From Bosea sp. 124 (GTDB lineage: Bacteria > Pseudomonadota > Alphaproteobacteria > Rhizobiales > Beijerinckiaceae), in contig NZ_PZZM01000001.1 in assembly GCF_003046175.1 (NCBI RefSeq), positions 4,543,001 to 4,607,000 of the forward strand: a stretch of 64,000 nucleotides of DNA, written 5' to 3'. The translations under genes and the position numbers were made by a program. Positions 46,590-60,364 of this stretch are shown here, piece after piece; positions within the stretch are counted from its first letter, which is position 1, and every line of letters starts with the position of its first letter. The notes beneath the pieces are model-generated. The model had not been told where the DNA came from and did not search any database. It worked only from the letters and a program-made list of their open reading frames with translations.

Positions 46590-46699
46590 TGTGCAGGGCG
46601 GTGACAAAACCATCCAATGAAGCGCCGTCGTTTGTGCTGGCGCGGGCGGCGTAAAAGCCATCCATTTGGATAGGCTGATCCCTTTTGGGGTTGGCGGGG

Positions 46700-48199
46700 A
46701 TGTTCGCGGTGGAGGTCTACGCGGCGGTTCGGCAGTTCGTGTTCAATCAGGGGAAGAGCCGCCGGGAGGCGGCGCGTGTTTTTGGTCTGAGCCGCGAGAC
46801 GATTGCGAAGATGTGCCGGTTCTCGCTGCCGCCGGGGTACACGCGAACGAAGCCTGCCGGGAAGCCGAAGTTGGGTCCGTTGCTGCCGGTGATCGACGCA
46901 ATCCTGGAGGCTGACCGGAGCGCGCCGGTGAAGCAGCGCCATACGGCCAAGCGGATCTTCGAGCGCCTGCGCGACGAGCATGGTTTCGCTGGCGGCTACA
47001 CGGTGGTGAAGGATTACGTGCGGATCGGCCGGGCGCGTGGGCGCGAGACCTTCGTGCCGCTGGCGCATCCGCCGGGACACGCCCAGGTGGATTTCGGCGA
47101 GGCGATCGCGGTGATTGGCGGGGTTCGGCAGAAGATCCATTTCTTCTGCATGGACCTGCCGCAGTCGGACGCCTGCTTCGTGAAGGCCTATCCCCGCGAG
47201 ACGACGGAAGCGTTCCTGGACGGCCATGTCTCGGCCTTCGGCTTCTTCGAAGGGGTGCCGCTGTCGATCCTGTACGACAACACGCGCATCGCGGTGGCGA
47301 AGATCTGCGGCGACGGCAAGCGCGAGCGAACCCGCGCCTTCACCGAGCTGGTCAGCCATTATCTGTTCCGGGATCGCTTCGGCCGTCCAGGCAAGGGCAA
47401 CGACAAGGGCAAGGTCGAGGGCCTGGTGAAGTACGCCCGCTCCAACTTCATGACGCCGATCCCGGTGGTGGCAAGCTTTGAGGCGCTGAACGCCAGGCTG
47501 GCTGAGCGTTGCCGTCTCCGGCAGGGGGAACGAGCCGGGCGGCATGCCGGGACGATCGGAGAACGGCTTGTCGCCGATCTGGCGGCGTTGCGCGACCTGC
47601 CGGCCGTGCCGCTGGAGCCGTGCGAGAAGCGCAGCGCGCGGGTCTCCTCGACCGCATTGGTGCGCTACCGCTCAAACGATTACTCCGTGCCCACAGCTTA
47701 CGGCTTTCAGGATGTCGTGGTGAAGGGCTTCGTCGATGCGGTCGTGATCCTGTGCGGTGGCGCCGAGATTGCCCGTCACCCGCGCTGCTATGGCGAAGGC
47801 GTGTTCGTCTCCAACCCACTGCATTATCTCGCCCTGATCGAGACCAAGCCCAATGCGCTCGACCAGGCGGCGGCGCTCCAGGGCTGGGATCTGCCCGAGG
47901 CCTTCCAGCACCTGCGCCATCTGCTGGAGGCGCGCATGGGCAACCGTGGCAAGCGCGAGTTCATCCAGGTGCTGCGGCTGATGGAGGCGATGCCGCGAGA
48001 TATGGTGACCTTCGCGGTGACCGAGGCGATCCGCCTCGGTGCCATCGGCTTCGACGCGGTCAAGCTGATCGCGCTGGCGCGGATCGAGCGCAGGCCCGCC
48101 CGTCTCGACCTGTCGGCCTATCCCCATCTGCCGAGGACGACGGTCAGGACAACCGCGGCCGCCGACTATGCCGTGCTCCTGCCGGAGGAAGCGGCATGA
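46700..48199 (+). CDS. istA: IS21-family transposase IstA
   Basis: A 499-aa DDE transposase. The N-terminal helix-turn-helix has KSRREAARVFGLSRETIAKM. The integrase core carries Asp in HAQVDFGEAIAVIGG, Asp in LSILYDNTRIAV and Glu in KGKVEGLVKYARSNF. The C-terminal Mu-transposase-like domain has YRSNDYSVPTAYGF. The ATG at 46700 is used; a TTG five codons earlier is possible. It overlaps istB by ATGA. The frame appears intact. Confidence 0.93.
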   Translation: MFAVEVYAAVRQFVFNQGKSRREAARVFGLSRETIAKMCRFSLPPGYTRTKPAGKPKLGPLLPVIDAILEADRSAPVKQRHTAKRIFERLRDEHGFAGGYTVVKDYVRIGRARGRETFVPLAHPPGHAQVDFGEAIAVIGGVRQKIHFFCMDLPQSDACFVKAYPRETTEAFLDGHVSAFGFFEGVPLSILYDNTRIAVAKICGDGKRERTRAFTELVSHYLFRDRFGRPGKGNDKGKVEGLVKYARSNFMTPIPVVASFEALNARLAERCRLRQGERAGRHAGTIGERLVADLAALRDLPAVPLEPCEKRSARVSSTALVRYRSNDYSVPTAYGFQDVVVKGFVDAVVILCGGAEIARHPRCYGEGVFVSNPLHYLALIETKPNALDQAAALQGWDLPEAFQHLRHLLEARMGNRGKREFIQVLRLMEAMPRDMVTFAVTEAIRLGAIGFDAVKLIALARIERRPARLDLSAYPHLPRTTVRTTAAADYAVLLPEEAA

Positions 48200-49062
48200 C
48201 CAGTAACACCAGCGACGCGATGCCGGCGGGAACGACCAGCGGCACGCCGCAGGTCCTGCTGGCGCATCATCTCAAGCAGCTGAAGCTGCCGACGGTGCTG
48301 CGCGAGTACGACAAGGTCGCCCGCGAATGCGCGCGCGATGGCGTCGATCATCCGCGCTATCTGCTGCGCCTGATCGAGCTCGAACTGATCGACCGCGAGC
48401 GCCGCACGGTCGAGCGGCGCATCCGGGCGGCGCGCTTCCCGGCGGTGAAGAGCTTCGACACCTTCGACTTCGCCGCCATCCCCGACCTCAACAAGATGCT
48501 CGTCCTGGAGCTGGCACGCTGCGGTTATCTCCTGCGCCGGGAGAACATCATCGCGCTCGGCAATAGCGGCACCGGCAAGACCCATGTCGCGCTCGCACTT
48601 GGCCTGGCGGCTTGCCAGAAAGGCTTCTCCGTCACGTTCACGACGGCGGCTTCTCTGGTCAACCAGTTGCTGGAGGCCCGCGACGAGCGCCGCCTGCTCA
48701 AGCTTCAGCGCGATCTGCAGGCGGTCAAGCTGCTCATCGTCGACGAACTTGGCTACGTGCCGTTGTCGCCGACCGGAGCCGAGCTCTTGTTCGAGACCTT
48801 CTCGCAACGCTACGAGCGCGGCTCGACCATCGTCACCTCGAACCTGCCCTTCGAGGACTGGACCTCGGTCCTGGGATCGGAGCGTCTCACCGGCGCACTG
48901 CTCGACCGGCTCACCCACCACGTCAGCATCCTGGCCATGAACGGCGACAGCTACCGGCTCAAACAATCCGCCGGCCGACGCCGCGCTATCGCCGCGGCGG
49001 AGCAAAACCAGGCCACCGTCGAGCACATCGATCCAAACACCGGCGAGATCACCGAAAGCTGA
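48196..49062 (+). CDS. istB: IS21-family helper ATPase IstB
   Basis: A 288-aa AAA+ ATPase related to DnaC that assembles on target DNA and activates IstA. Walker A is GNSGTGKTH (about residue 123), Walker B is KLLIVDELGYVPLS, and the sensor region is STIVTSNLPFEDW. The start overlaps the istA stop, so translation is coupled. The N-terminal 100 residues are helical (LAHHLKQLKLPTVLREYD). Intact. Confidence 0.95.
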   Translation: MTSNTSDAMPAGTTSGTPQVLLAHHLKQLKLPTVLREYDKVARECARDGVDHPRYLLRLIELELIDRERRTVERRIRAARFPAVKSFDTFDFAAIPDLNKMLVLELARCGYLLRRENIIALGNSGTGKTHVALALGLAACQKGFSVTFTTAASLVNQLLEARDERRLLKLQRDLQAVKLLIVDELGYVPLSPTGAELLFETFSQRYERGSTIVTSNLPFEDWTSVLGSERLTGALLDRLTHHVSILAMNGDSYRLKQSAGRRRAIAAAEQNQATVEHIDPNTGEITES

Positions 49063-49076
49063 TCAGAAACGAACGC

Positions 49077-49120
49077 GACGATAAGCCAAGGGCCCCGATC
49101 GGGGCCCTTGGCTTATCGTC
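49077..49120. repeat. 44-bp perfect palindrome after istB
   Basis: Each arm is 22 bp (GACGATAAGCCAAGGGCCCC then GA, followed by the exact complement) with no loop. It lies 15 bp after the istB stop, within the IS21-type element. It could be a bidirectional terminator without a T-run, or a protein-binding or recombination site. Confidence 0.85.
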
Positions 49121-49186
49121 CTCCGGCGCCATCGCTGGCCTGGTTTTGCTCCGCCACGCTGGCCTGGAAACCGACCGCCGTTGACA

Positions 49187-49508
49187 GCGTTCACATTAGT
49201 CTGTGTCGATCCGGTCGTGTGCGATGCCACACGACCCTGCCCCTGTGGCGCGGCGTGGCTTTGGGCTCAGATGCCCGGAAATCCGTGGCAAATAGCTTTG
49301 GTTTCGAAATGGCTGACCCGTGCAAACGTTTCTTAGTACGGAATGGCACGGGACGAACTGGATGTAGATCGGACTGGCCCGAACATCGACCTTGCGCCGT
49401 CACCAGAGCGCCGAGGGCATGCAGGTCGTTCTCATTGACACGCGCGGAAATCGCACCCGGAATGTCGGAATAAGCCGAGAGCTATCTCGCGACGATGGGA
49501 CGTAGATC
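49187..49508. other. Non-coding stretch before nitronate monooxygenase, with hairpin
   Basis: About 320 bp with no convincing gene. At 49213-49236 a perfect 9-bp stem (GGTCGTGTG with its complement) with a 6-base loop could be an operator or terminator. The monooxygenase promoter should be here. Confidence 0.45.
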
Positions 49509-50576
49509 ATGAAGTTCGACCGCCGCATCCAGGACCTGTTCGGCATCGACCTACCGATCATCCAAGCGCCGATGGCGGGCTCAGTGGGCTCTGAAATGGT
49601 CATCGCAGTTTCCGAGGCCGGGGGGATGGGCTCGCTCCCATGTGCGATGCTTTCGGTCGAACAGGCGCGCGCGGAGATCGGCATCATTCGGCAACGCACA
49701 TCCCGCGCTATCAACCTCAACTTCTTCTGCCATACCCCGCCGCTACCAGCCCCCGAGCGCGAGATAGCCTGGAAAGCGCACTTAGAGCCTTACTACCGGG
49801 AACTCGGGCTTGATCCTCAAGCACCAATACCCAATGCGGCCCGAACGCCGTTCAACAGCGAGATGTGCGATGTCATTGCTGAGTTCCGGCCGGAGGTCGT
49901 GAGCTTCCACTTCGGGCTGCCCGAGGCCGGTCTCGTCGATCGGGTGAAGGCGACCGGCGCTAAAGTCATCTCTTCAGCAACGTCCGTCGATGAAGCGCGG
50001 TGGCTCGAGGGCCAAGGTTGCGATGCGATCATTGCCCAAGGTTACGAGGCCGGTGGGCATCGCGGAATTTTCCTTTCCGACGACATACGTACGCAAGCCG
50101 GAACCATGGCTCTTGTGCCGCAGGTCGTAGACGCAGTGCGAGTGCCGGTCATCGCGGCAGGCGGGATAGCCGACGCACGTGGAATAGTTGCCGCGTTCGC
50201 GCTTGGAGCTTCGGCCGTGCAGATCGGGACGGCGTTCCTTCTATGCCCTGAGGCAAAGACCAGCGCCGTCCATCGCGCTGCGTTGAAGACCGCGAAGGAC
50301 AACAGCATGGTGCTAACAAACGTTCTTACAGGCCGACCCGCGCGAGGCATCCTAAATCGCTTACTGCGCGAGGTCGGACATCTCTCCGATCTTGCTCCCG
50401 CCTTTCCACAAGCGGGTAGCGCGGTTGCGCCGCTCCGGGCCAAAGCGGAAGCGGCCGGATCGGGGGACTTCTCGCCATTGTGGGCAGGGCAGTCAGCAGC
50501 GTTGGCGCGGGAGATGCCAGCGGGTGATCTGACACGCCAACTCGCTGATGGCATGCTCGCTGCATTGCGGAGCTAG
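49509..50576 (+). CDS. Nitronate monooxygenase
   Basis: A 355-aa FMN-dependent TIM-barrel enzyme (former 2-nitropropane dioxygenase) that oxidises propionate-3-nitronate and alkyl nitronates. Class I features are PIIQAPMAGSVGSEMVIAVS, GGMGSLPCAM, the catalytic His in QGYEAGGHRGIF (about residue 183), IAAGGIADARGIVAAFALGA and QIGTAFLLCPEAKTS for FMN phosphate binding. It is the only clear metabolic enzyme on the island and may detoxify nitro compounds. The base composition is a little lower in GC than the chromosome genes. Confidence 0.92.
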   Translation: MKFDRRIQDLFGIDLPIIQAPMAGSVGSEMVIAVSEAGGMGSLPCAMLSVEQARAEIGIIRQRTSRAINLNFFCHTPPLPAPEREIAWKAHLEPYYRELGLDPQAPIPNAARTPFNSEMCDVIAEFRPEVVSFHFGLPEAGLVDRVKATGAKVISSATSVDEARWLEGQGCDAIIAQGYEAGGHRGIFLSDDIRTQAGTMALVPQVVDAVRVPVIAAGGIADARGIVAAFALGASAVQIGTAFLLCPEAKTSAVHRAALKTAKDNSMVLTNVLTGRPARGILNRLLREVGHLSDLAPAFPQAGSAVAPLRAKAEAAGSGDFSPLWAGQSAALAREMPAGDLTRQLADGMLAALRS

Positions 50577-50613
50577 AGGTAGAGTGACAAGCTCCAAAAG
50601 GCGCTACCTCAGA

Positions 50614-50874
50614 TTAGGTCTTTGACTTTCCGGTATCTGAAACTCGTGCTCCTCGGCTTCGGCTGACGTTTTCCACATGCGTTCCCTGAATTCCAGGAGC
50701 CATGTCGGTCGGATCGACCTGGGCCTTTTGCACGCCGCCCTCGTGCGATGTCCGGTGTTCCGGGGTTGTCGTCTGTGATCCGGCGTCGTTCTTCATTCGC
50801 AATGCCTTCGCCGCGTTCTTTTCCAACTCGGTTGCCCCGCCGGGCTGTTTCGACCATTTTTTAGGATCGAGCAT
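50614..50874 (-). CDS. Small hydrophilic hypothetical protein
   Basis: An 86-aa charged protein starting MLDPKKWSKQPGGATELEKN. A strong ribosome site (GGGAGG, six bases before the ATG) supports it over the overlapping frame that ends at 50609. It has no signal peptide or membrane segment and looks disordered, rich in Lys, Thr, Gln and Gly. Family unknown; it is convergent with the nitronate monooxygenase. Confidence 0.55.
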   Translation of the reverse strand: MLDPKKWSKQPGGATELEKNAAKALRMKNDAGSQTTTPEHRTSHEGGVQKAQVDPTDMAPGIQGTHVENVSRSRGARVSDTGKSKT

Positions 50875-51019
50875 GGTTATCCTCCCTTATTTTCGGCCGA
50901 TGCGATTCTATGCGCGTTGCCTGTGGGACAACTCGCCAACGCGGTCTTTGTGCCGGTGGGCACGAAAGCTACGACATACAAGCGGCAGCAAGGTCCAGAC
51001 CCGAATAGTGATCAGCCCG
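50875..51019. other. Short intergenic stretch
   Basis: About 145 bp with no gene seen. It should carry the promoter of the 86-aa protein on the minus strand; no clear sigma-factor motif is visible. Confidence 0.3.
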
Positions 51020-51328
51020 CTATTTACTTGCGACCCACTTTCGAAACCGAGCCCATCGATCAGCGCCTGATAACGTAAAGCGCGCCACCGGCTTCTGGAG
51101 AAACGGAACATCGGCGGCGAGCAACAGGAGCCCAAGCGGCAACATCCAGATACCAAGTCCCGGCAGAATTGAAAAAATGCCGCCCATCATGAGCAGAATA
51201 CCGACCGGTAAGCGAAGCCATCGCGAAGCAGGGTGGCGAAGCCAGCGCAGGCCAGCGCCGAGCCAAAGCGGCACCTCCTGCTCGAAGCGTCTGAAAGCCT
51301 GCCGTAGGGCCTGCTTGCCTTTGGGCAT
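51020..51328 (-). CDS. Small membrane protein (PGPGW-type)
   Basis: A 102-aa protein. A basic amphipathic N-terminus (KQALRQAFRRFEQEVPLWLG) is followed by two membrane helices around the turn ILPGLGIWMLPLGLLLLAAD. This resembles the PGPGW family of small transmembrane proteins. The ATG at 51328 was chosen for its upstream AGG-rich ribosome site; an ATG six codons earlier lacks one. Role unknown. Confidence 0.7.
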   Translation of the reverse strand: MPKGKQALRQAFRRFEQEVPLWLGAGLRWLRHPASRWLRLPVGILLMMGGIFSILPGLGIWMLPLGLLLLAADVPFLQKPVARFTLSGADRWARFRKWVASK

Positions 51329-51363
51329 TGTGCCTATTCCTATCATTTTCAGCGCAACAAGCG

Positions 51364-51391
51364 CGACGATCTCGGCCGACCGAGACCGTCG
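51364..51391 (-). terminator. Imperfect hairpin after a small exported gene
   Basis: CGAC and TCTCGG arms pair with CCGAGA and GTCG around a short loop, with a 2-base internal mismatch. It lies just after the stop of the gene at 51402-51686. There is no T-run. Confidence 0.35.
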
Positions 51392-51401
51392 CGGCGCAAA
51401 G

Positions 51402-51686
51402 TCACCAGGAGCGGTAGTAGCCGAAGTCGCGGGCGCGCCGCCCATAGGCCCGAGCGTGCGGCGGGGGACCTCCATAATAGCGACCGTAGCCACGCCCCTG
51501 GTCCCAATGACGGGACTTTCCCCAACCCTTATGGCCCTTGTAACCGTGACCACCTTTTTTGATCTGCTCAATGTGATCGGGCGTCTCAATGGTTGTCAGG
51601 CTCGCTACCGGGGAGGCGCGGGAAGTCGATGGCATGATGGAGCCCAAGCCCATCATGGTCACTGCGATAAGAACGAATGTGCGCAT
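51402..51686 (-). CDS. Small exported Gly/His/Tyr-rich protein
   Basis: A 94-aa protein. The signal peptide is MRTFVLIAVTMMGLGSIMPS and cleavage is likely after SRA. The mature part is rich in Gly, His, Tyr, Arg and Trp (IKKGGHGYKGHKGWGKSRHW, GRYYGGPPPHARAYGRRA). Such proteins are common in Rhizobiales and may bind metal or the cell envelope, but the function is unknown. The ribosome site is AAGGAGAG, the same as in the next gene upstream. The ATG at 51686 is chosen over one 12 codons earlier. Confidence 0.7.
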   Translation of the reverse strand: MRTFVLIAVTMMGLGSIMPSTSRASPVASLTTIETPDHIEQIKKGGHGYKGHKGWGKSRHWDQGRGYGRYYGGPPPHARAYGRRARDFGYYRSW

Positions 51687-51721
51687 TGGTCTCTCCTTCG
51701 GTTGCACCGGTTTGAAGAGCA

Positions 51722-51753
51722 AGCGGTTGGGTCTGCGACCAAATCCAACCGCT
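51722..51753 (-). terminator. Hairpin between two small exported genes
   Basis: A perfect 9-bp stem (AGCGGTTGG with its complement) and a 14-base loop, placed after the stop of the gene at 51768-52040. There is no T-run on the minus strand, so it may be an attenuator rather than a full terminator. Confidence 0.45.
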
Positions 51754-51767
51754 GAAAAAATGCTGTG

Positions 51768-52040
51768 TCAGTCGCAGATTCGCATCCGGCGAACGACGAC
51801 CTCGCCGTAGCGATTGACGCGACGCTTGATGACCATGCGGCAATCGTCATCGTCATCGTAGACGGGGCCACGGAAGCCACGTCGTTCTCCCGCAAAGCGG
51901 TAGCCACGGGGCTCGTGATAGCGTGGACCATCATAGCCGGGCCGGTCGATCCCAAGCTCGAACTGGACCTGTGCTTGGGCCGGAGCGGTGAAGGCGGCGG
52001 TAGCCGCGACAGCAGCGGCGATCAGGATTGGCCTTAACAT
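51768..52040 (-). CDS. Small exported basic/acidic protein
   Basis: A 90-aa protein with a signal peptide (LIAAAVAATAAFTAPAQAQ). The mature part has Arg/Gly/Tyr-rich stretches (IDRPGYDGPRYHEPRGYRF), a DDDDD run, then IKRRVNRYGEVVVRRMRICD with two cysteines near the end. This pattern is seen in small envelope proteins of Bosea/Methylobacterium-like bacteria. The ATG at 52040 follows AAGGAGAG. Function unknown. Confidence 0.7.
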   Translation of the reverse strand: MLRPILIAAAVAATAAFTAPAQAQVQFELGIDRPGYDGPRYHEPRGYRFAGERRGFRGPVYDDDDDCRMVIKRRVNRYGEVVVRRMRICD

Positions 52041-52080
52041 GGCGTCTCTCCTTAAGTTGATCAGATGAGCCCGATCGAAA

Positions 52081-52108
52081 GAAGCCCACCCCGTGAGGGG
52101 TGGGCTTC
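52081..52108 (-). terminator. Terminator of the DUF1236 gene
   Basis: A perfect 12-bp stem (GAAGCCCACCCC with its complement) and 4-base loop, six bases after the stop codon, followed on the minus strand by TTT. Confidence 0.75.
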
Positions 52109-52114
52109 CGCTGA

Positions 52115-52540
52115 TCACTCGATGATCTGAACGATCTTGCGCGTCTTCGGCTCGACCAGGACCGTCTGGTCGTTGACGACCGTGTAGCGGTACTCGGTCT
52201 TGCCGTACTTGGTCGGGACTTCGCGATACGTGACAGTCTCGGGCAGGGTCGCGCCGACCACGACCTTCTCGCGATACGCCACCGAAGGCACCTTCTGCTC
52301 CTTCACGTAGGTGCGGAACTCGGTGCGGTTGTCGGCGGAAATGCCACCGACGATCGCGCCAGCCGCAGCACCACCAACTGCGCCGACAGCGGCACCGGCC
52401 GGACCGCCGACAATCGCGCCACCGACAGCGCCAGTCGCAGCGCCGCCCGCAGCACCACCGGCTGCACCGGAGCTAGACTGAGCGAAGACAGTTGCGGGGG
52501 CTAAGGCGAGGGCCGCTACAAGAGCAATGTGCTTGATCAT
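52115..52540 (-). CDS. DUF1236 domain-containing exported protein
   Basis: A 141-aa protein. Signal peptide MIKHIALVAALALAPATVFA is followed by a glycine-zipper-like Gly/Ala repeat (about 25-70) that may insert in a membrane. The C-terminal DUF1236 domain has FRTYVKEQKVPSVAYREKVV, GATLPETVTYREVP and YRYTVVNDQTVLVEPKTRKI. DUF1236 proteins are typical of Rhizobiales; their job is unknown. The ATG at 52540 follows GGGAGAAG. A general-stress-type promoter lies at 52589-52613. Confidence 0.88.
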   Translation of the reverse strand: MIKHIALVAALALAPATVFAQSSSGAAGGAAGGAATGAVGGAIVGGPAGAAVGAVGGAAAGAIVGGISADNRTEFRTYVKEQKVPSVAYREKVVVGATLPETVTYREVPTKYGKTEYRYTVVNDQTVLVEPKTRKIVQIIE

Positions 52541-52588
52541 GATCTTCTCCCTTTTTGACCGGGCTTCATGCCCTTTAGTCGAATTAAA

Positions 52589-52613
52589 AACTGCGGACAA
52601 AGCCGTCAGTTCC
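52589..52613 (-). promoter_or_regulatory. EcfG-type promoter candidate for the DUF1236 gene
   Basis: On the minus strand GGAAC, 17 bases, then GTT. The known alphaproteobacterial general-stress sigma factor EcfG reads GGAAC-N16-CGTT, i.e. the same spacing with C before GTT; here that base is A. It lies about 50 bases before the start codon. Confidence 0.55.
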
Positions 52614-52724
52614 ATGAATAACCGTTCATAATGAGAGGCTTAGCGAGAACCGGCGGGAGCTAGATCGCTCAGGGTTGTGCCAGTACTCGCAGGAGGTTCG
52701 GCGCACGTGCGGATTTTGCCCGCA

Positions 52725-52749
52725 GGAACTTTGCTGAGCCCGCAACGTA
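52725..52749 (+). promoter_or_regulatory. EcfG-type promoter candidate, exported paralogue 1
   Basis: GGAAC, 16 bases, CGTA, 35 bases before the ATG of the gene at 52785. It differs from the EcfG consensus only in the last base. Confidence 0.6.
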
Positions 52750-52784
52750 TGAACTGAACAAGGCAGCGTTTTGGGGAGGCCGCG

Positions 52785-53225
52785 ATGATATCGCAATTGG
52801 CAGTGCTGATGATCCCGAGCGCGATATTGCTGGCAAACCACGCACAGCCCGATGCGGACGTGTCTTACACCTGTAAATTCGAGGCCGGTGTGATCGTGAT
52901 TGATCATCCTCAGGCAACGGGCCGGGCGACCGTCCAAATTGGTGGAGATGCCCGGCCCTACATTGTGGACGAGCAAAAGCTGGTGCCCATGGAAGCGGGC
53001 TTGCCGACCTATTATTTCCAGTCAGAACTGAAGCGATGGAAGAGGCTCAATCAGAGCGGCGAGACGGTCGAAACGACGGTCTGCAAATCGGCCATCTCCT
53101 CATCCAAAGCTGACGCGCGAACCCCTCCCGCCGTGACGAACAGTCCTAATGGCGATCGGGCGTCAGAGGTCGGATTTCAAGCTCCATCCCATCCACCACC
53201 GTCCCCGCTTCATCACGCACGATGA
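52785..53225 (+). CDS. Exported two-cysteine protein, paralogue 1
   Basis: A 146-aa protein with an N-terminal hydrophobic signal (MISQLAVLMIPSAILLANHA). A domain of about 75 residues follows: YTCKFEAGVIVIDHP, DARPYIVDEQKLVP, FQSELKRWKRLN, ending with Cys in TTVCK. It matches the gene at 53489 without gaps at 35 of 75 positions by hand count. The last 45 residues (Ala/Pro/Ser-rich) are absent from the paralogue and overlap the antisense DUF6894 gene. The ribosome site is GGGGAGG. No known family is recognised; the two conserved Cys may form a periplasmic disulfide. Confidence 0.72.
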   Translation: MISQLAVLMIPSAILLANHAQPDADVSYTCKFEAGVIVIDHPQATGRATVQIGGDARPYIVDEQKLVPMEAGLPTYYFQSELKRWKRLNQSGETVETTVCKSAISSSKADARTPPAVTNSPNGDRASEVGFQAPSHPPPSPLHHAR

Positions 53226-53394
53226 GAGCGACCTTAGCTGGTCCAGGTGGGAGTTCAGCGACCATTTCGCGCAAGGCTTCGTCTGCAACTTGGCGCGCCG
53301 CTTCGACGCTCGGCAATTCGAGCGCCGCGTCCGGCTTTAGCATGTTCTGACGTTTATCGGCGTGCCGGATCGCCGCAAAGTGAAATCGCTTCAT
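53146..53394 (-). CDS. DUF6894-like protein
   Basis: An 82-aa protein: MKRFHFAAIRHADKRQNMLK, then LPSVEAARQVADEALREMVA and VALIVRDEAGTVVDGMELEI. This fits the small DUF6894 family found widely in Rhizobiales (start MxRFxF, LPD.EAAR.EA, V.DE.G). The ATG at 53394 follows GGAGGTG; two ATGs slightly upstream lack it. Its 3' 80 bp run antisense to the end of paralogue 1. Confidence 0.75.
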   Translation of the reverse strand: MKRFHFAAIRHADKRQNMLKPDAALELPSVEAARQVADEALREMVAELPPGPAKVALIVRDEAGTVVDGMELEIRPLTPDRH

Positions 53395-53435
53395 GGTCAC
53401 CTCCATCATCTAGCCAACTAGCCGAGCAACGTGAC

Positions 53436-53460
53436 GGAACTTGGGAAGGCGCGGGGCGTA
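53436..53460 (+). promoter_or_regulatory. EcfG-type promoter candidate, exported paralogue 2
   Basis: GGAAC, 16 bases, CGTA, 28 bases before the ATG at 53489. The arrangement equals that of paralogue 1, although the spacer sequences differ. Confidence 0.6.
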
Positions 53461-53488
53461 GTAGAGTGGCGGGAATCTGGAGAACGTT

Positions 53489-53818
53489 ATGATCTCACAC
53501 ATTGCGGTTCTTTTCGCGCCGATGGTTTTTGCCTTAGTCGCAGATACCGATCCCGTCACTAACCCGGTTTATACCTGCCCATTCAAGGCCGGTCAGGTCG
53601 TCATTGAGCAGGCCGAGCCTTCGGGTGACGTGATAGTCCAAGTCGATGGGCAGGCCCGGCCGTATGTCATGGACAAGCTGAAACTCGTCCCGAAGGATCG
53701 GGGTCTGCCCTCCTTCCTGTTCCAGCCGGACCTGAAGCGCTGGCAATGGCTCAACGACCAGGGCGACCCCACAGAGAGTGTTGGATGTACCGAGAAGCCA
53801 TCACTTAAAACGGGCTGA
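53489..53818 (+). CDS. Exported two-cysteine protein, paralogue 2
   Basis: A 109-aa protein with a hydrophobic N-terminus (MISHIAVLFAPMVFALVADT). The same domain as the gene at 52785 follows: YTCPFKAGQVVIEQAEPSG, ARPYVMDKLKLVPKD, GLPSFLFQPDLKRWQWLN and GCTEKPS. Nearly the whole mature part is this domain, so it is the cleaner form of the family. The ribosome site GGAG lies before the ATG. Its last codons overlap the start of a response-regulator remnant, suggesting that a deletion or insertion joined the two. Confidence 0.72.
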   Translation: MISHIAVLFAPMVFALVADTDPVTNPVYTCPFKAGQVVIEQAEPSGDVIVQVDGQARPYVMDKLKLVPKDRGLPSFLFQPDLKRWQWLNDQGDPTESVGCTEKPSLKTG

Positions 53819-54054
53819 CGGACAACGGCGAGAATACCTTCGATCTTGTGATCACGGATCAGGCGATGCCACGCATGACAGGCGTGCAGTTCGCCTCTGA
53901 GGTGCGGGCAGTCCATCCCGATCAACCGATCTTGATTGCCACGGGCTATGCAGAGTTGCCCCCCGGCGTAGACCTGCCTCGGCTGAACAAACCATTCGAC
54001 CAGACGGCGTTGACCCGAGCGATAACGGCTTGCCTGGAGGCTCACGGTCGATGA
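53809..54054 (+). pseudogene. Remnant of a response-regulator receiver domain
   Basis: The frame, open after a stop at 53806, encodes about 81 residues: FDLVITDQAMPRMTGVQFAS, HPDQPILIATGYAELPPGVD and LNKPFDQTALTRAI. This is the C-terminal two-thirds of a receiver domain, with the phospho-acceptor Asp in VITDQAMP, Thr in IATGYAE and Lys in NKPF. The N-terminal strand with the acidic pair is missing, as is any sensor kinase part. The wording resembles receiver domains at the end of hybrid histidine kinases. It is probably non-functional; a GTG at 53848 could start a 68-aa piece. Confidence 0.7.
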
Positions 54055-54143
54055 GGCGGGCGCGACGCTTGTAGAGTGTCCAGACGTTAAACGGATTTCT
54101 GCGCAACCCGCCTCTTATCCCTCACCCCCCAAGGGCAGGTCTT

Positions 54144-54341
54144 TTAGCCGCCGAGCCAAGAGTATGCCCAAAAAGTACCGTAAACGAGCAGAGCAAGCCA
54201 AGCCACTATGACTATACTCAAAACCGAGGCAAATGACCGCTCATGAACGGGCGCTAGTTGACTGATGGAAGCGTCCGCCTCTGCTGGATCGGTATTCTCT
54301 CCAGCGTCCAAGGGCCGGTGTGATCGCTTGGTAGATGTCAT
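54144..54341 (-). CDS. Small single-pass membrane protein
   Basis: A 65-aa protein with a polar, acidic N-terminal half (KRSHRPLDAGENTDPAEADA) and one C-terminal membrane helix (LSIVIVAWLALLVYGTFWAY). The ribosome site GGGAGGAG before the ATG is strong. An EcfG-like promoter lies just upstream (54367-54391). Function unknown; possibly an envelope-stress peptide. Confidence 0.65.
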   Translation of the reverse strand: MTSTKRSHRPLDAGENTDPAEADASISQLAPVHERSFASVLSIVIVAWLALLVYGTFWAYSWLGG

Positions 54342-54366
54342 CTTCTCCTCCCGAAATGACGTGAAA

Positions 54367-54391
54367 AACGTCGCAGCGGAGGAAAGTTTCC
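54367..54391 (-). promoter_or_regulatory. EcfG-type promoter candidate, small membrane protein
   Basis: On the minus strand GGAAA, 16 bases, CGTT, 25 bases before the ATG. One base in the -35 element departs from GGAAC; the -10 element is perfect. Confidence 0.5.
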
Positions 54392-54485
54392 AGGCACGTT
54401 AGAAAAAATCTAAACTCATGCCTAGCTGCGACGGAGCGCTTTTGCTGGTCGTCTGGGAGAGCCCGCTGACCGAATAACTCGGGCG
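54392..54485. other. Short intergenic stretch
   Basis: About 95 AT-richer bases between the 65-aa gene's promoter and the 3' half of the IS66-split gene. No feature seen. Confidence 0.3.
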
Positions 54486-54650
54486 TCAGTCGATCTCATA
54501 GACCGCCTTGCGCATGGCAGGAGGTAGAGGACGCCAATGAGTCGGCTGCCATTCTAGGTCCCGCCCTATGTCGTCGATCCAGGCCGCACTGCTCTTCGAA
54601 GCGTCACCATCGAGAATTTTCCGCAATCGGGCATTCTGGACGAGATTACC
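54486..54650 (-). pseudogene. 3' half of a 77-aa gene split by IS66
   Basis: 54 codons plus stop: GNLVQNARLRKILDGDASKS, AAWIDDIGRDLEWQPTHWRP and so on to AVYEID. Joined in frame to 57178-57246 (removing the IS and one target copy) it gives a continuous 77-aa protein with its own ATG and ribosome site. The longer frame that runs into the IS66 end is an artefact. Family unknown. Confidence 0.75.
54643..54650. repeat. IS66 target-site duplication, left
   Basis: AGATTACC, repeated exactly at 57170-57177 on the other side of the element. An 8-bp duplication is the norm for IS66. Confidence 0.92.
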
Positions 54651-54691
54651 GTAAGCGCCACGCCGGTCCCCTCGTGTGGGGCGGGAGGTGA

Positions 54692-55165
54692 ATGTGCCAA
54701 GAGTCCTCTGATCGCGAGAGACGGAGGGCTTGGGTGGGAGCGGACGGCAAAATGGACGTCCATTTGGACGTCTCGACACCTGGCTACGTAGGCCGACTTG
54801 AGGTTGTTGAGGGTCCGACGGGTCGGCGGGTTCGCTCGGCGTCGGAGAAGGCGCGGATCGCGGCGGAGAGCCTGATGCCGGGGTCGCAGGTGACGGCGGT
54901 TGCCCGCAAGCATGGCGCGACGCGCTGGCAGGTTTATGATTGGCGGCGTCGCCTTCGTCAGGGACAGTTGGCCCTTCCGGAGAGCCGGGAGCCGCTGTTC
55001 GCGCCGCTGCTGGTGGAAGAAGCGCCGTCGCCCCGACCGCCGACGAAGCCGCCGAAATCGACGCTGGCGAAGGTTGAGATCGTGATCGACGGCATGGTGA
55101 TCCGCACGACGGTCGAGGTCGAGCGGTTGGCGCAGGTGATCCGTGCGGTGCGGGCCTCGCGATGA
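54692..55165 (+). CDS. tnpA: IS66 accessory protein TnpA
   Basis: 157 aa (137 aa if the ATG at 54752 is used). The HTH part is SEKARIAAESLMPGSQVTAV, then ARKHGATRWQVYDWRRRL, typical of the IS66/IS3-type orfA helix-turn-helix. The start at 54692 follows GGGAGG very closely. The stop overlaps the tnpB start (ATGA). Confidence 0.88.
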   Translation: MCQESSDRERRRAWVGADGKMDVHLDVSTPGYVGRLEVVEGPTGRRVRSASEKARIAAESLMPGSQVTAVARKHGATRWQVYDWRRRLRQGQLALPESREPLFAPLLVEEAPSPRPPTKPPKSTLAKVEIVIDGMVIRTTVEVERLAQVIRAVRASR

Positions 55166-55515
55166 TTGCGCCGGGCGCCGATCTGAAGATCTACATGGCG
55201 ACGCGACCTGTCGACTTCCGGCGCGGCCTCGACGGGCTGGCCGCGGCGGCGCAGGAGGTCCTCGGCCTTGATCCCTATAGTGGCGCGGCCTTCGTCTTCC
55301 GCGCCAAAAGGGCCGACCGGATCAAGATTTTAGTCTGGGATCGCACCGGGCTGGTGCTGGTGCACAAGCGCCTGGAGGGCTCGAAGTTCGTGTGGCCGCA
55401 GGTTCGCGACGGCGTGATGAGACTGTCACCGGCGATGTTTGCGGCGTTGTTCGAGGGGCTGGATTGGCGCTTGGTTCGGCCTGAGAGAGTTCGGCGTCCG
55501 CAGCTCGCCGGGTGA
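55162..55515 (+). CDS. tnpB: IS66 accessory protein TnpB (IS66 Orf2)
   Basis: 117 aa, the usual length. The family pattern is complete: LKIYMATRPVDFRRGLDGLA, AAFVFRAKRADRIKILVWDR, TGLVLVHKRLEGSKFVWP and LSPAMFAALFEGLDW. It is needed together with TnpA and TnpC for transposition of IS66 elements in experimental work on family members. Confidence 0.95.
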   Translation: MIAPGADLKIYMATRPVDFRRGLDGLAAAAQEVLGLDPYSGAAFVFRAKRADRIKILVWDRTGLVLVHKRLEGSKFVWPQVRDGVMRLSPAMFAALFEGLDWRLVRPERVRRPQLAG

Positions 55516-55583
55516 GTGCGGCAGACTGACTCAGGTCCGTGCCAGGCATGGCGCAGACGGCGGATCCGTGCTCGAAATAGTGG

Positions 55584-57149
55584 ATGAACGTCGCAGTTCT
55601 CCATGGTGAGGTCGAGCGTCTGAAGGCCGAGCTGGCGCAGACGCAAGAGGCCCTGGCTCAGTCCGAGGAAGCGCGGCGGCGGCTGGAGAGCATCGTCAGC
55701 GACCTCCAGCGCGAGAAGTTCGGCTCCCGATCCGAGAAGCTCTCCGGCGAGCAATACCATCTACCGCTGGAGGACGTCGAAATCGCCCAGGGCGTGCTCG
55801 ATGCCGCCCATGAGAAGGCGCAGCGGATCATCGAGGGCCGCCCGGACGGCGCCTGTGCTTCTCACCGGCGCAACCGCGGTCACCTGCCGGCCCATCTGCC
55901 GCGGGTGGAGCGGATCATCGAGCCGCAGAGCAGGCTGTGTCCGTGCGGCTGCGGCGAGATGTCCAGGATCGGCGAGGACGTCAGCGAGCGGCTGGACGTG
56001 GTGCCGGCGCAGTTGCGCGTGCTGGTCACCCGCCGCCCGAAATATGCTTGCCGCCGCTGCTCGGGCGCGGTCGTGCAGGCCCATGCTCCCGAGCATGTGG
56101 TGCCGGGCGGCCTGCCGACCGAGGCGCTGATCGCCCAGGTCATCGTCGCCAAGTTCGGCGATCACCTGCCGTTCTATCGGCAGGCCGAGATCTATGCGCG
56201 CCAGGGCATCCGGCTCGATCGCGCGACACTGGGCAACTGGGCCGGCCGGGCCTGCTTCCATCTCAAGCCCATCGCCGAGCGCATGCGCTGGCATCTGGCC
56301 GCGGCGGGTCGTCTGTTCATGGACGAGACCACCGCACCGGTGCTCGATCCCGGACGCGGCAAGGTCAGGAAGGGCTTCTTCTGGGCGATCGCTTCCGATG
56401 ACCGCGGCCATGGCGGCCAGGGCCCGCCCATCGTGCTGTTCCACTATGCGCCGGGACGCAGTGGCGAGCATGCCGAACGCTTCCTTCAGGGCTTCCGCGG
56501 GCAGTTCCTGCAGGTCGACGCCTATGAGGGCTACGATCGGCTGACGCGCCTGGAGAGGCCGCAGGGGCCATGGAGGCTCGTCCATTGCTGGGCTCATCTG
56601 CGCCGACGCTTCGTCAAGCTGGCGCGCAACACCAAATCGCCGATCGCCGAGGCGGCGATACGCCAGATCGCGGCGCTCTATGCCATCGAGGCAACGGTTC
56701 GCGGTGTCTCGCCGCAACTGCGGCTTGCCGCCCGGCGGGAGCATTCCACGCCGATCATCACCGCCCTGAAACCGTGGTTCGAGAAGCAACTGTCGCTGAT
56801 CTCCTCCGGCTCCAGGCTGGCCGAAGACATCCGCTACGGGCTCGCCCACTGGGAGGGGCTCACCCGCTTCCTTGACGATGGCCGCCTCGAGCTCGACACC
56901 AACCCGGTTGAAAACGCGATCAGGCCCGTCTGCCTGACCCGAAAAAATGCTCTGTTCGCCGGCCACGAGGTCGGCGCCGAAAACTGGGCACTGCTCTCGT
57001 CCCTCGTCGCCACATGCAAGCTCAACGACGTCAATCCCGTCGCCTATCTCGCTGAAACCCTCGACGCCGTCATCAACGGCCACCCACAAAGCGCCGTCGA
57101 AGATCTCATGCCATGGCGCTTCCGGAAAACCTCAACCCCAAATCCGTAG
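55584..57149 (+). CDS. tnpC: IS66 transposase TnpC
   Basis: 521 aa. The N-terminal leucine-rich coiled coil (about 1-45) precedes the LQREKFGSRSEKLS block. A zinc-binding region with CPCGCGEMSRIGEDVSERLD and CRRCSG follows, then the DDE core: Asp in LFMDETTAPVLDPG, Asp in QVDAYEGYDRL and Glu in TNPVENAIRPVCLTRKNALF. The C-terminal IS66_C tail is LAETLDAVINGHPQSAVEDL. Apparently intact. Confidence 0.96.
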   Translation: MNVAVLHGEVERLKAELAQTQEALAQSEEARRRLESIVSDLQREKFGSRSEKLSGEQYHLPLEDVEIAQGVLDAAHEKAQRIIEGRPDGACASHRRNRGHLPAHLPRVERIIEPQSRLCPCGCGEMSRIGEDVSERLDVVPAQLRVLVTRRPKYACRRCSGAVVQAHAPEHVVPGGLPTEALIAQVIVAKFGDHLPFYRQAEIYARQGIRLDRATLGNWAGRACFHLKPIAERMRWHLAAAGRLFMDETTAPVLDPGRGKVRKGFFWAIASDDRGHGGQGPPIVLFHYAPGRSGEHAERFLQGFRGQFLQVDAYEGYDRLTRLERPQGPWRLVHCWAHLRRRFVKLARNTKSPIAEAAIRQIAALYAIEATVRGVSPQLRLAARREHSTPIITALKPWFEKQLSLISSGSRLAEDIRYGLAHWEGLTRFLDDGRLELDTNPVENAIRPVCLTRKNALFAGHEVGAENWALLSSLVATCKLNDVNPVAYLAETLDAVINGHPQSAVEDLMPWRFRKTSTPNP

Positions 57150-57169
57150 GGCCCCGGCAGGGCGCTTAC

Positions 57170-57177
57170 AGATTACC
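57170..57177. repeat. IS66 target-site duplication, right
   Basis: AGATTACC, identical to 54643-54650. Confidence 0.92.
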
Positions 57178-57246
57178 GTCAGTCACCTCCACTACGTCGC
57201 TGTACGTCTTCGGGAGTGGCGGCCCGCCTAATTTCCAACCGGTCAT
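57170..57246 (-). pseudogene. 5' half of the 77-aa gene split by IS66
   Basis: Starts with ATG at 57246 after the ribosome site AGAGGA and reads MTGWKLGGPPLPKTYSDVVE then VTD, 23 codons, before the target duplication. The rest is at 54486-54650. It begins 9 bp after the stop of the gene at 57256-57537, so the two once formed an operon. No domain recognised. Confidence 0.72.
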
Positions 57247-57255
57247 AAGTCCTCT

Positions 57256-57537
57256 TTATCGCCATCGCGTCGGGCTTGGAGCAGGCGGCACAATGGCTCG
57301 CAACTGTGACGCACTGTCCTGATGCGCGGCCACGAATTTCTTTGCTTCGCTCACAAACAACAGCCACGTGGGAACATCGCTGCTCATCAGGCTATCAATG
57401 AATGGCCTAGCGCCAGTGATTGCCGGTAGCGCCCCATCCAGGGGCTGGTCGGGGTCCAATCGCCGCGATCGACACATGGCACACGCGATCCGAATGATCC
57501 GGGCATGGCCGCTTCCCTCCGGCCGATAAGCGTACAC
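57256..57537 (-). CDS. Hypothetical protein upstream of the split gene
   Basis: 93 aa from a GTG at 57537 with AAAGGA just upstream. It has two Cys in RIACAMCRSRRLDPDQPLDG, a mid part ALPAITGARPFIDSLMSSDV, and VPTWLLFVSEAKKFVAAHQD near the end. No membrane segment or known domain is seen. It would be translated with the 77-aa gene now broken by IS66, so the insertion may have removed a partner. Confidence 0.5.
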   Translation of the reverse strand: MYAYRPEGSGHARIIRIACAMCRSRRLDPDQPLDGALPAITGARPFIDSLMSSDVPTWLLFVSEAKKFVAAHQDSASQLRAIVPPAPSPTRWR

Positions 57538-57691
57538 ATCGTCCTTTACCGGCGGAACGGCAAAGATGAGACAGGGTGGGGAGCGGTCTGCCCGTTAAGG
57601 GACGCCCCCTACCAGCGCGCAAGAGGGCCTAAAGTCCCGTTACGTCAGTAATCTGAACAGAATAGAACCAACGCGGGACTGAAATAGGAAT

Positions 57692-57958
57692 TCAAATCCG
57701 GCCGGGCAGCATTGTGCCGGACTGGCCGGTGGCCTGATTTCGGTCGGCGGTCGATATGAACCTCTCCAAAGCCAGCCGGGCGAGATCGGTATCGGTCTTT
57801 GCGTGCGGGAATAGTGCCGCGACTGCGTACGCCAGCCGCGTCCGTTCGCGAGTGCGATCTTCCTCGGCGATTGTGTCGCGCACCTCAGCCCAAACGGCGT
57901 CGAGCGCGCCTTGGACCCGCGCCAGATCGCTGGGATCGTTGAATGACGAGAACGGCAT
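57692..57958 (-). CDS. Conserved small hypothetical protein
   Basis: An 88-aa helical protein: MPFSSFNDPSDLARVQGALD, AVWAEVRDTIAEEDRTRERT and RLAYAVAALFPHAKTDTDLA. Similar short proteins are common in Rhizobiales genomes near two-component or stress genes; their role is unknown. The ATG at 57958 follows GGGGGGA; an in-frame start eight codons earlier is less likely. Confidence 0.68.
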   Translation of the reverse strand: MPFSSFNDPSDLARVQGALDAVWAEVRDTIAEEDRTRERTRLAYAVAALFPHAKTDTDLARLALERFISTADRNQATGQSGTMLPGRI

Positions 57959-58353
57959 TGTGGTCCCCCCGGAACCGCGCAACGCACCTACTATTCAACA
58001 AGGCATCCGCACGACGCAACCGTATCTGCGGCTACATGCCAGCCGTGGCCATTCCTATGCCGAGCATCCCAAGGGATGTGCTCACCGCTCCGACGGGATC
58101 GGTCGCGGCCAAGGAAATCTCTGGCCTAGTCTCGGTGGTTTTCGTCTCTTTCGCATTCAGATCATCCGGCCAGACGTTCCCCACCCCTCCATTCACCGCT
58201 GTACCAAAAACCCTCCCGCTCCCGCAGACCTCGCAGGTCCCATAAACCTCTGCAAACACGGGCCTGACGCTCGGCCGCGAGAGCCGTGCAGACCGTAGCT
58301 AGAACCATCTGTTTTTGATTGCGGTCTGGACGATCCATGAGAGGGTCGAGACC
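57959..58353. other. Stretch without a firm gene
   Basis: About 395 bp before the serine recombinase. The only candidate is a minus-strand frame at 58032-58259 (GTG start, 75 aa) with a CxxC pair in GTCEVCGSGRVFG; it lacks a good ribosome site. The recombinase promoter should be near 58300. Confidence 0.4.
58032..58259 (-). CDS. Possible small CxxC protein
   Basis: 75 aa. The CEVCG near the N-terminus could be half of a zinc site; the rest (NGGVGNVWPDDLNAKETKTT) looks disordered and ends in a Gly/Met-rich tail. Support is weak: GTG start, no clear ribosome site, no family recognised. Confidence 0.28.
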   Translation of the reverse strand: MFAEVYGTCEVCGSGRVFGTAVNGGVGNVWPDDLNAKETKTTETRPEISLAATDPVGAVSTSLGMLGIGMATAGM

Positions 58354-58974
58354 ATGAAGCGCGTCGCCCTCTACGCCAGGGTCTCGGTCGCCCGCAGCAG
58401 CCAGACCACCGAGAACCAACTGCGCCTGCTCCAGGATGCCGCTGCGCGCCTGGGCTGGACCATCGTCGCCGTCCATACCGACGAAGGCATCAGCGGCGCG
58501 AAGAGCCGGGAGAAGCGGCCGGGCTACGACGCCTTGTTGAAGGGCGTCACCCGAGGTGAGTACGACCTCGTCGCAGCATGGTCGGTGTGCAGGCTGGGCA
58601 GGTCCCTCCAGGACCTCGTCGCTTTCCTCGCCGATCTCCAGAGCCGAGAGACGGGGCTCTACCTGCACGTCCAGGGCCTCGACACCTCGACGCCATCAGG
58701 CAGGATGTTGTTCGGCATGATCTCGGTCTTCGCCGAGTTCGAGCGGGCGATGATCCGCGATCGCATCCTGGCTGGGCTCGATCGGGTCCGGGAGACGAAG
58801 CGGCTGGGCCGCCCGCCGATGTCGATCGAGAAGACCGAAGCCATCCGCACCATGCTGGCCCAGGGGCTGGGCGTGCGCGAGACGGCCCGACGAACCGGAG
58901 CCGGGACCGCTACGGTGCAGCGGCTGAAGCGCGCGATGGCGGTCGAGGACGGTGAGGAGACCGTGGCGGCGTAG
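58354..58974 (+). CDS. Serine recombinase (resolvase/invertase family)
   Basis: A 206-aa small serine recombinase. The catalytic Ser is residue 11 in VALYARVSVARSS; the arginines lie in AAWSVCRLGRSLQDLVAFLA. The block LDTSTPSGRMLFGMISVFAE then FERAMIRDRILAGL forms the E-helix, and a C-terminal Hin-type HTH follows (LAQGLGVRETARRTGAGTAT). The ATG at 58354 is preferred over one 13 codons earlier. It could resolve cointegrates or invert DNA within the island. It is convergent with the integrase. Confidence 0.93.
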   Translation: MKRVALYARVSVARSSQTTENQLRLLQDAAARLGWTIVAVHTDEGISGAKSREKRPGYDALLKGVTRGEYDLVAAWSVCRLGRSLQDLVAFLADLQSRETGLYLHVQGLDTSTPSGRMLFGMISVFAEFERAMIRDRILAGLDRVRETKRLGRPPMSIEKTEAIRTMLAQGLGVRETARRTGAGTATVQRLKRAMAVEDGEETVAA

Positions 58975-58987
58975 CCTGCTTCATCCT

Positions 58988-59043
58988 GGTCTACATGGAC
59001 ATGTACACCGACCTGGACATGATCATGTAGACCATGTCCAGGT
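58988..59043. repeat. Nested inverted repeats between the two recombinase genes
   Basis: GGTCTACATG (58988-58997) pairs with CATGTAGACC (59024-59033), and ACCTGGACATG (59011-59021) pairs with CATGTCCAGGT (59033-59043). The two stems overlap, so only one can form at a time. TGGACATG units recur inside. It lies just after the recombinase stop. Confidence 0.75.
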
Positions 59044-59083
59044 CGTTGTTCACGAACAGCAGTCAGTAAAAAACGACCCCTTC

Positions 59084-60364
59084 TCAGGCCCTGATCCGCC
59101 GCAGGAAGGGGAAGTCGATCTCGTCGATGTGCCTCTTCAGCAGCGGCATGTCATCCTGGAGCATCAGATAGTGCTCCTCTGAGATGTCGCCCGGCTTGTG
59201 GCCGGTGATCGCGTTGATCGTCGCCTTCGGCACCCCCGTCGTATAGGCGGCGTGCTCGAACGTCTTCCTGAGCGAGTGCACCGTCAGCCTGCGATTGGTG
59301 CCAAGCGCCGCGTCGATCTCGCGGTTCAGTCTCATGCTGATCGCACTGCTCCAACTCTCGGCCGAGGCCCGGTACTTCAACTCGGTGAACAGCCGGTCCG
59401 GTGAGCGCTGAACCAGATCGAGGACGCCCAGGTCGAGCAGATCGCGGTGGAGCGGGATGTACCGCTTGTTGTGCGCGTTCTTCACCTTCGCCTCGTTCAA
59501 GTCGATCACATCAATGCCGTCCCGGCGCACAAACCATGCCGCACGAAGCTGGGCCATCTCTTCGAGCCGGGCACCGGTCAGAAGCAGCAGCCGGGGAAGC
59601 CACAGGACCGCGCCGTCATCGCGCTCGGTCCTGCCGAAGAACCGGGCAAGCTGGTCATGATCGAAGCGGGAGTAGCTGCGGCGTGCCGCGACGATGGCGG
59701 CACGATCTGGCCCTAGGCCCCGGAACGCGTTGCTGCTGATCATCCCGGCCGCGACCGCCGCGTTACAGATCGTCGAGAGGCAGGTCACGGTCTTCTTAGT
59801 CGTCGCAACCGAGCCTACCTTCAGCCCGCGCACGAACTTCTCCGCGTCCTGCCGGGTGATGGTGTTGACGGCGAGGTCCCCGGCCGAGGCCACGAAGCGC
59901 GTGATGGCCTTCTCCATATCGAGCCTAGACCTTCGGCGGGGCACCGCTCCCTTCCGTTCCTGGCGGCGTGGCAGATAGACCTCCTGATAGACACGTCGCA
60001 GTGTCATGCCATCCGGCGTCGAGGTGGTCGGGCTAACTTGCTTCGAGCCAGACTGCTTCTGGCCGGTGACCGGTACGATGATCCGGCTCTCCCGATAGGC
60101 GGCAGGATCGAACTGCCAAAGTGGGACCGTCCCCGAGCGAACGGCTGCGATCATCTCCCCGACATCCGCCGCAGCGCGCAGAGCCCGACTTCGTGCGACC
60201 AGAGGATCACGGGTCTTGAGGGAGAAGGTCACCGTCCGTCGTGCGCCACCAACATCAGCAGCTACCAGGGCCTGGAACACGTCGGCGGGAAGCTGGAGCC
60301 GAAAACCAAAGACGCCGCCTCGCGTCCCTTGGCGAGAGAACGGCACCAGCCCCAAACGCGGCAT
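59084..60364 (-). CDS. Tyrosine-type site-specific integrase
   Basis: A 426-aa phage-type integrase. The N-terminal part has FGFRLQLPADVFQALV (DUF6538-like arm region), then a SAM-like core-binding domain (about 150-240). The catalytic set is Arg in LTGARLEEMAQL (about 264), His and Arg in TVHSLRKTFEHAAY (about 362 and 365), His in ITGHKPGDISEEHY (about 389) and the Tyr nucleophile at its end (about 398). It reads inward from the distal attachment copy and is the likely enzyme for integration at tRNA-Arg. Confidence 0.95.
   Translation of the reverse strand: MPRLGLVPFSRQGTRGGVFGFRLQLPADVFQALVAADVGGARRTVTFSLKTRDPLVARSRALRAAADVGEMIAAVRSGTVPLWQFDPAAYRESRIIVPVTGQKQSGSKQVSPTTSTPDGMTLRRVYQEVYLPRRQERKGAVPRRRSRLDMEKAITRFVASAGDLAVNTITRQDAEKFVRGLKVGSVATTKKTVTCLSTICNAAVAAGMISSNAFRGLGPDRAAIVAARRSYSRFDHDQLARFFGRTERDDGAVLWLPRLLLLTGARLEEMAQLRAAWFVRRDGIDVIDLNEAKVKNAHNKRYIPLHRDLLDLGVLDLVQRSPDRLFTELKYRASAESWSSAISMRLNREIDAALGTNRRLTVHSLRKTFEHAAYTTGVPKATINAITGHKPGDISEEHYLMLQDDMPLLKRHIDEIDFPFLRRIRA

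Follow-up and report, generated by a model that had tools for sequence, protein, structure and literature searches.

Four genes on an integrated genomic island of a Bosea chromosome are preceded by elements that each lie one mismatch from GGAAC-N16-CGTT, and we hold it highly likely that these are general stress response promoters which the host sigma factor EcfG would read and which the cargo brought along with it, the one before a DUF1236 gene probably having a second input. The finding sits within a 4-kb islet of the island, in a 64-kb stretch of DNA (hereafter the window) that corresponds to bases 4543001–4607000 of a one-contig, 5.47-Mb genome. The elements and their genes, in window positions, are:

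52589..52613, minus strand: EcfG-like promoter of the DUF1236 gene; GGAAC at 52613–52609, N17, GTT (equivalently N16-AGTT, 52592–52589); 48 nt before the ATG
52725..52749, plus strand: EcfG-like promoter of the first exported gene; GGAAC at 52725–52729, N16, CGTA at 52746–52749; 35 nt before the ATG
53436..53460, plus strand: EcfG-like promoter of the second exported gene; GGAAC at 53436–53440, N16, CGTA at 53457–53460; 28 nt before the ATG
54367..54391, minus strand: EcfG-like promoter of the 65-aa gene; GGAAA at 54391–54387, N16, CGTT at 54370–54367; 25 nt before the ATG
52115..52540, minus strand: DUF1236 gene, with a glycine-zipper-like segment and the DUF1236 domain; start ATG at 52540
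52785..53225, plus strand: exported paralogue 1, a small protein of 146 aa with an exported-type N terminus
53489..53818, plus strand: exported paralogue 2, a small protein of 109 aa with an exported-type N terminus and a predicted all-beta fold
54144..54341, minus strand: 65-aa protein with one likely membrane span, judged by eye

The −35 element reads GGAAC in three of the four cases and GGAAA at the 65-aa gene, while the −10 element is AGTT at DUF1236, CGTT at the 65-aa gene and CGTA at both exported genes; all four sites have a spacer of 16–17 nt and lie on the right strand less than 100 nt from the start. The first-pass annotation of this DNA had reported GGAAC-N16-CGTA twice, GGAAC-N17-GTT and GGAAA-N16-CGTT, 25–50 bases before the start codons and on the right strand, and the sequence bears this out, with matching coordinates and distances of 25–48 nt in all four cases. 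The DUF1236 domain scores 82.3 bits with PF06823, above the curated Pfam cut-off of 32.4, and we place the start of this gene at MIKHIAL, the ATG at 52540, because homologues share this start and the longer open reading frame (52615) begins inside the promoter.

In the alphaproteobacterial general stress response, phosphorylated PhyR removes NepR from EcfG when cells are stressed. The host genome has one NepR match in Pfam, with a PhyR-like frame divergent from nepR and EcfG downstream, the latter two recognised from the frames neighbouring nepR, and GGAAC-N16-TGTT precedes nepR itself. The consensus is given as GGAAC-N16-CGTT for Rhizobium etli EcfG1 in one report (PMC3892343) and as GGAAC-N17-20-GTT for Sphingomonas melonis EcfG in another (PMC6599016), whose Table 1 includes GGAAA...CGTT, GGAAC...AGTA and GGAAC...CTTT among the putative motifs of EcfG-dependent S. 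melonis genes. The variants in the window thus fall within the reported range, given that these S. melonis motifs have GGAAA among their −35 elements and GTA or CTTT among their −10 elements. Like the EcfG promoters of other Alphaproteobacteria, the window elements combine a GGAAC −35 (three of the four), 16–17 nt spacing to a −10 that is of the nGTT type at DUF1236 and the 65-aa gene, a position less than 100 nt from the start and a host with PhyR, NepR and EcfG; unlike them, they are one mismatch off, the exported family has CGTA, CGTC or GCTT, the DUF1236 copy has an abutting inverted-repeat box and the location is an integrated island.

The island spans 14.4 kb and is defined by these features:

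46102..60522, no strand: integrated genomic island, with 17-bp direct repeats at 46102–46118 and 60506–60522
46042–46118: tRNA-Arg(TCT), whose last 17 bases (46102–46118) are the left-hand repeat
59084..60364, minus strand: tyrosine (phage-type) integrase (Pfam Phage_integrase and DUF6538), adjoining the right-hand repeat

The 17-bp 3′ end of the tRNA-Arg gene is exactly duplicated and occurs only in these two copies in the window. G+C content is 62.8% in the island and 58.8% in the 4-kb islet, compared with 66.1% for the whole window, and the island also contains a Mu-type transposase, which we take to be IS21-like, an IS66 transposase and a resolvase. With a duplicated tRNA 3′ end, an integrase at one end and deviating composition, the island is a real tRNA-integrated element. 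Additional islet genes are a DUF6894 gene and a partial receiver domain, neither with a one-mismatch site in the region upstream (130 nt for the former):

53146..53394, minus strand: DUF6894 gene, between the two exported genes
53848..54054, plus strand: partial receiver domain that seems to be what is left of the C-terminal end of a hybrid histidine kinase

The receiver matches the C-terminal end of an MHYT-PAS-HisKA-HATPase-receiver hybrid kinase, of which genome G110 has a full-length copy close to the same genes (stretch L020, 6982–9222); the window copy looks like a remnant. Two more small islet proteins with exported-type N termini (51402–52042) are likewise encoded without a one-mismatch EcfG-like site upstream.

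Chance is the first explanation to be weighed, namely that in G+C-rich DNA a one-mismatch rule throws up four GGAAC-like pairs near genes by coincidence. The exact motif, GGAAC-N16/17-CGTT, is absent from the 64-kb window and occurs 101 times genome-wide compared with 72 for a backward-read control pattern, and among 149 genes sampled initially, one-mismatch sites stood upstream of 6 on the right strand and 5 on the wrong one. A bare motif match therefore proves little. One-mismatch sites number 175 in 580 kb of background (29 stretches of the same chromosome, both strands), or about 0.3 per kb, and density by itself is weak evidence, with 4 sites where the 4-kb islet would be expected to hold 1.2 (p = 0.034); it is placement upstream of genes that is significant. 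A site lies within 130 nt upstream of 4 of 10 islet genes compared with 13 of 448 chromosome genes sampled (Fisher p = 2.4e-4), a difference that persists with a generous choice of background starts (17 of 448, p = 5.8e-4) and against genes with free upstream DNA (10 of 259, p = 8.2e-4), and none of 2,000 dinucleotide shuffles of the four upstream regions reached four hits. The same 130-nt search found no one-mismatch site at the other six of the ten islet genes. Background genes were called crudely, from open frames of at least 80 aa and G+C by codon position; we picked the ten islet genes, and the four genes and the motif were picked in the first-pass annotation, so that these placement p values are partly post hoc and serve as supporting figures. 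Raw motif density was rejected as evidence, being barely above background with the exact motif mildly over-represented genome-wide.

Two features of this background stand apart from the island. Thirteen of the 101 exact GGAAC-N16/17-CGTT sites fall within 117 kb of the same genome (996–1113 kb, parts of which are in stretches L014–L017), possibly a large stress-gene region. Divergent pairs of GGAAC sites lie 25 bases apart in stretch L011 (12816–12841) and 99 bases apart in L018 (9681–9780), and are possibly divergent stress promoters.

Homologues provide data that are largely independent of the choice of genes and motif, and are stronger evidence than the placement statistics. For DUF1236, a search of the genus with a 26-base pattern that took in the box (described below) together with GGAAC, allowing at most three mismatches, returned 25 places in 17 of 67 genomes, and a slightly different pattern added one further locus in an eighteenth genome (G132). 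An open frame with a DUF1236-type N terminus follows all 26 boxed sites, the three copies in our own genome being confirmed by Pfam, and GGAAC-N16/17-[ACG]GTT is retained in every one of the 26 upstream regions. With a spacer of 16 the −10 element is AGTT in 13, CGTT in 10 and GGTT in 1, and with a spacer of 17 it is CGTT in 2; the exact EcfG consensus is present in 12 of the 26. Because the search pattern itself contained GGAAC, we also scanned with the box alone (at most five mismatches, first 52 loci), blind to GGAAC, and found GGAAC directly after each of 15 distinct boxes. Across the 22 distinct loci with a spacer of 16, GTT is invariant and 12 of the 16 spacer columns carry less than 1 bit, a pattern of conservation that, judged from the alignment, is a promoter footprint. 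Coincidence is hard to reconcile with GGAAC and GTT being kept around a mostly variable spacer, and with the conservation found in the exported family described below, and we consider it very improbable as the source of the four elements.

Our own genome holds seven DUF1236 genes, and in upstream stretches that exceeded the 130 nt examined for background genes, six of them have GGAAC-N16-nGTT (three without the box) and the seventh has TGAAC-N16-CGTT. A near-consensus element is thus present at the four other DUF1236 genes too, which makes a stress-type promoter look like the ancestral state for DUF1236 and the box like something added in a single branch. A DUF1236 gene is described as strongly induced by aluminium in Rhizobium phaseoli (PMC8909678), and a search of one open-licence literature collection found nothing on DUF1236 together with EcfG.

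The exported pair belongs to a family with matches in 11 of the 67 genus genomes, where 19 match rows correspond to 17 gene loci, two genes having given two rows. GGAAC stands 52–72 nt before the start at 15 of these 17 loci, two of the 15 being the window's own; it is not in place at the remaining two (in G182 and the second copy of G161), both of which are partial matches. Over the 15 GGAAC-aligned loci mean information is 0.50 bits in the spacer columns and 0.27 bits in the 20 columns before GGAAC, and the four −10 columns carry 1.16, 1.16, 1.65 and 0.54 bits. Agreement at the −10 is imperfect, with CGTA (8), GCTT (4), CGTC (2) or CGCC (1) in place of nGTT, and 13 of the 15 loci are within one mismatch of the consensus at a spacer of 16 or 17. 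Eleven aligned members share two invariant cysteines, and a structural model of the exported protein is all-beta (mean pLDDT 78), its best Foldseek match being the lysozyme inhibitor PliC (3oe3, E = 0.11). The protein is small and all-beta like the PliC/MliC inhibitors (3oe3, 4mir), with PliC as its best fold match; unlike them, it has no Pfam match to their family, so that with E = 0.11 at best this is a resemblance only, and the modelled likeness to PliC is a lead only. No Pfam assignment for the exported family exceeded the cut-off and no lysozyme-inhibitor family matched at E 0.1, and a tblastn search of plasmids with the second exported protein returned no homologues.

The 65-aa gene is the weakest of the four cases. 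A single close relative turned up elsewhere in this genome, at 3.18 Mb, with an identical promoter element; because the neighbouring upstream bases are alike too, conservation does not single the element out, and the three distant homologues have no such element. A promoter there is plausible. The description of the four as EcfG-like promoters, proposed in the first-pass annotation, is thus favoured by sequence, placement, the host PhyR–NepR–EcfG locus and conservation in homologues, but comparative support is thin for the 65-aa gene: the promoter interpretation is supported strongly for DUF1236 and the exported genes and weakly for the 65-aa gene.

Relatives of the islet occur at two other places in this genome (3.18 and 4.95 Mb), in G110 and in Bosea sp. 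LC85, and a Bosea Tri-49 plasmid carries a relative of the DUF1236 part and one neighbouring stretch only, together with a box variant. With a DNA identity of about 65–79% over the main blocks, the relatives do not have the look of recent copies, and no tRNA gene was found in any of the five related stretches (3.18 Mb, 4.95 Mb, G110, LC85 and the Tri-49 plasmid). When plasmid DNA was searched with the promoter region, there was a single chance-level match (E = 4), and the box-bearing Tri-49 plasmid was missed. Exact consensus sites number two per 20 kb at each of the 3.18- and 4.95-Mb islets, compared with 6 in the 580-kb background. Also present are DUF892 and YflT-like stress genes in the 3.18-Mb islet and genes for an HWE kinase, a receiver and a DUF1206 protein in the 4.95-Mb one; according to PMC12148442, activation of the general stress response is coordinated by HWE/HisKA2 kinases.

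These data also bear on whether the elements are read by an ECF sigma factor other than EcfG whose −35 specificity is likewise of the GGAAC type. Seven further places in the genome match EcfG at 28–42% identity, the exported promoters prefer CGTA or GCTT, and GGAAC-like −35 elements are common to several ECF groups. Yet only one close EcfG was found in the genome, its nepR neighbour is itself preceded by GGAAC-N16-TGTT, the exact EcfG consensus recurs among the boxed DUF1236 promoters at the frequency given above, and two paralogue islets lie among stress-type genes. We regard another sigma factor as improbable and keep EcfG as the candidate reader.

The DUF1236 promoter has an additional part that a specialist would not expect, a conserved box with an inverted-repeat core:

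52614..52645, minus strand: conserved box of about 32 bp abutting the DUF1236 −35 element, with its core at 52614–52629 (ATGAACGGTTATTCAT on the minus strand); putative operator

The box sequence, CGCTAAnnCnCTnATTATGAACGnTTATTCAT, has many invariant columns, those within the searched pattern being biased towards that pattern, and the centre of its core lies 8 nt before GGAAC. The core fits ATGAAY-N4-RTTCAT at all three places where the box occurs in our own genome, and a search of the 5.47 Mb found it at those three places only, each at a DUF1236-type EcfG-like promoter (six strand matches, the core being self-complementary; control 0). Eight core variants are self-complementary at 10 to 16 of 16 positions, and the perfect palindrome ATGAATAGCTATTCAT occurs in G166, G181 and the Tri-49 plasmid. 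With at most three mismatches allowed, the box with GGAAC turned up in 15 of 397 genomes of the family, every one of them from our own genus, which by our count makes up 46 of the 397; the 351 others had none. On strict sites, with the core at three genome places only, we rejected the idea that the box is a general repeat or the mark of a large regulon. Because the strict core is confined to three promoter-linked places in the genome, it suggests a second, dedicated regulator at the box.

As the box sits in a divergent intergenic region, it might instead be a promoter or control site of the divergent exported gene and no operator of DUF1236; read in reverse it contains TTCATAAT, by eye like a housekeeping −10 element. 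Seven of the 17 box-bearing genomes (G151, G153, G157, G166, G171, G181 and G208), however, have no exported-family match at E 0.001 and keep the box beside DUF1236, although G153 may hold a remnant; G196 has the exported family and no box; and each of the 15 boxes found blind to GGAAC abuts it exactly. Assignment of the box to the divergent gene therefore seems unlikely, if slightly less so than a different sigma factor, and we retain it as a candidate DUF1236 operator. A protein bound there may be a repressor, or may act on the divergent gene too. Searches of one open-licence collection on DUF1236 and EcfG, islands with EcfG, and upstream elements of stress sigma promoters found nothing on such a box, and one on Bosea with general stress response and sigma factor found nothing.

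Activators at class II promoters, for example CRP at −41.5, bind directly upstream of the −35 element. The DUF1236 inverted repeat is placed similarly, with its centre near −41 if transcription starts about 7 nt past the −10 element; unlike class II promoters, the sigma specificity is ECF-type and the box is a putative binding site. As a tentative proposal, to which we give somewhat less than even weight, the DUF1236 promoter could be a dual-input one, with EcfG at GGAAC-N16-nGTT and a dedicated dimeric regulator at the abutting ATGAAY-N4-RTTCAT, forming a genus-private switch for a mobile set of stress genes, a set which lies on a plasmid as well as at several sites in the chromosome and is recruited into the EcfG regulon of each host.

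We infer EcfG dependence, stress induction and a regulator at the box from these comparisons, and propose the following course. Under stress, phosphorylated PhyR would remove NepR from EcfG, and the freed EcfG with RNA polymerase would start at the GGAAC-N16-nGTT-type promoters of DUF1236, both exported genes and, probably, the gene of the 65-aa membrane protein. Promoters that came with the cargo would function in the new host because EcfG is core host machinery, and a protein, perhaps a dimer, on the inverted-repeat box would be the probable second input at DUF1236. The island cargo is thus probably turned on by stress. The first-pass annotation had imported cargo wired into the stress response of the host, a reading to which the tRNA, repeat and integrase anatomy, the lower G+C and the EcfG-type promoters lend indirect support. 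The wiring probably came with the cargo, since similar promoters precede homologues elsewhere in Bosea, among them those at two other places on this chromosome and, for DUF1236, on a plasmid.

As a system this appears to be of a known kind, EcfG-type stress promoters, with a new member on an integrated island. The conserved box offers a specific bait for finding the second regulator, and the promoters give testable leads on DUF1236 and on a small exported family without Pfam assignment. Mobile cargo of this kind could be useful on arrival, its promoters being suited to a sigma factor already present in likely recipients.
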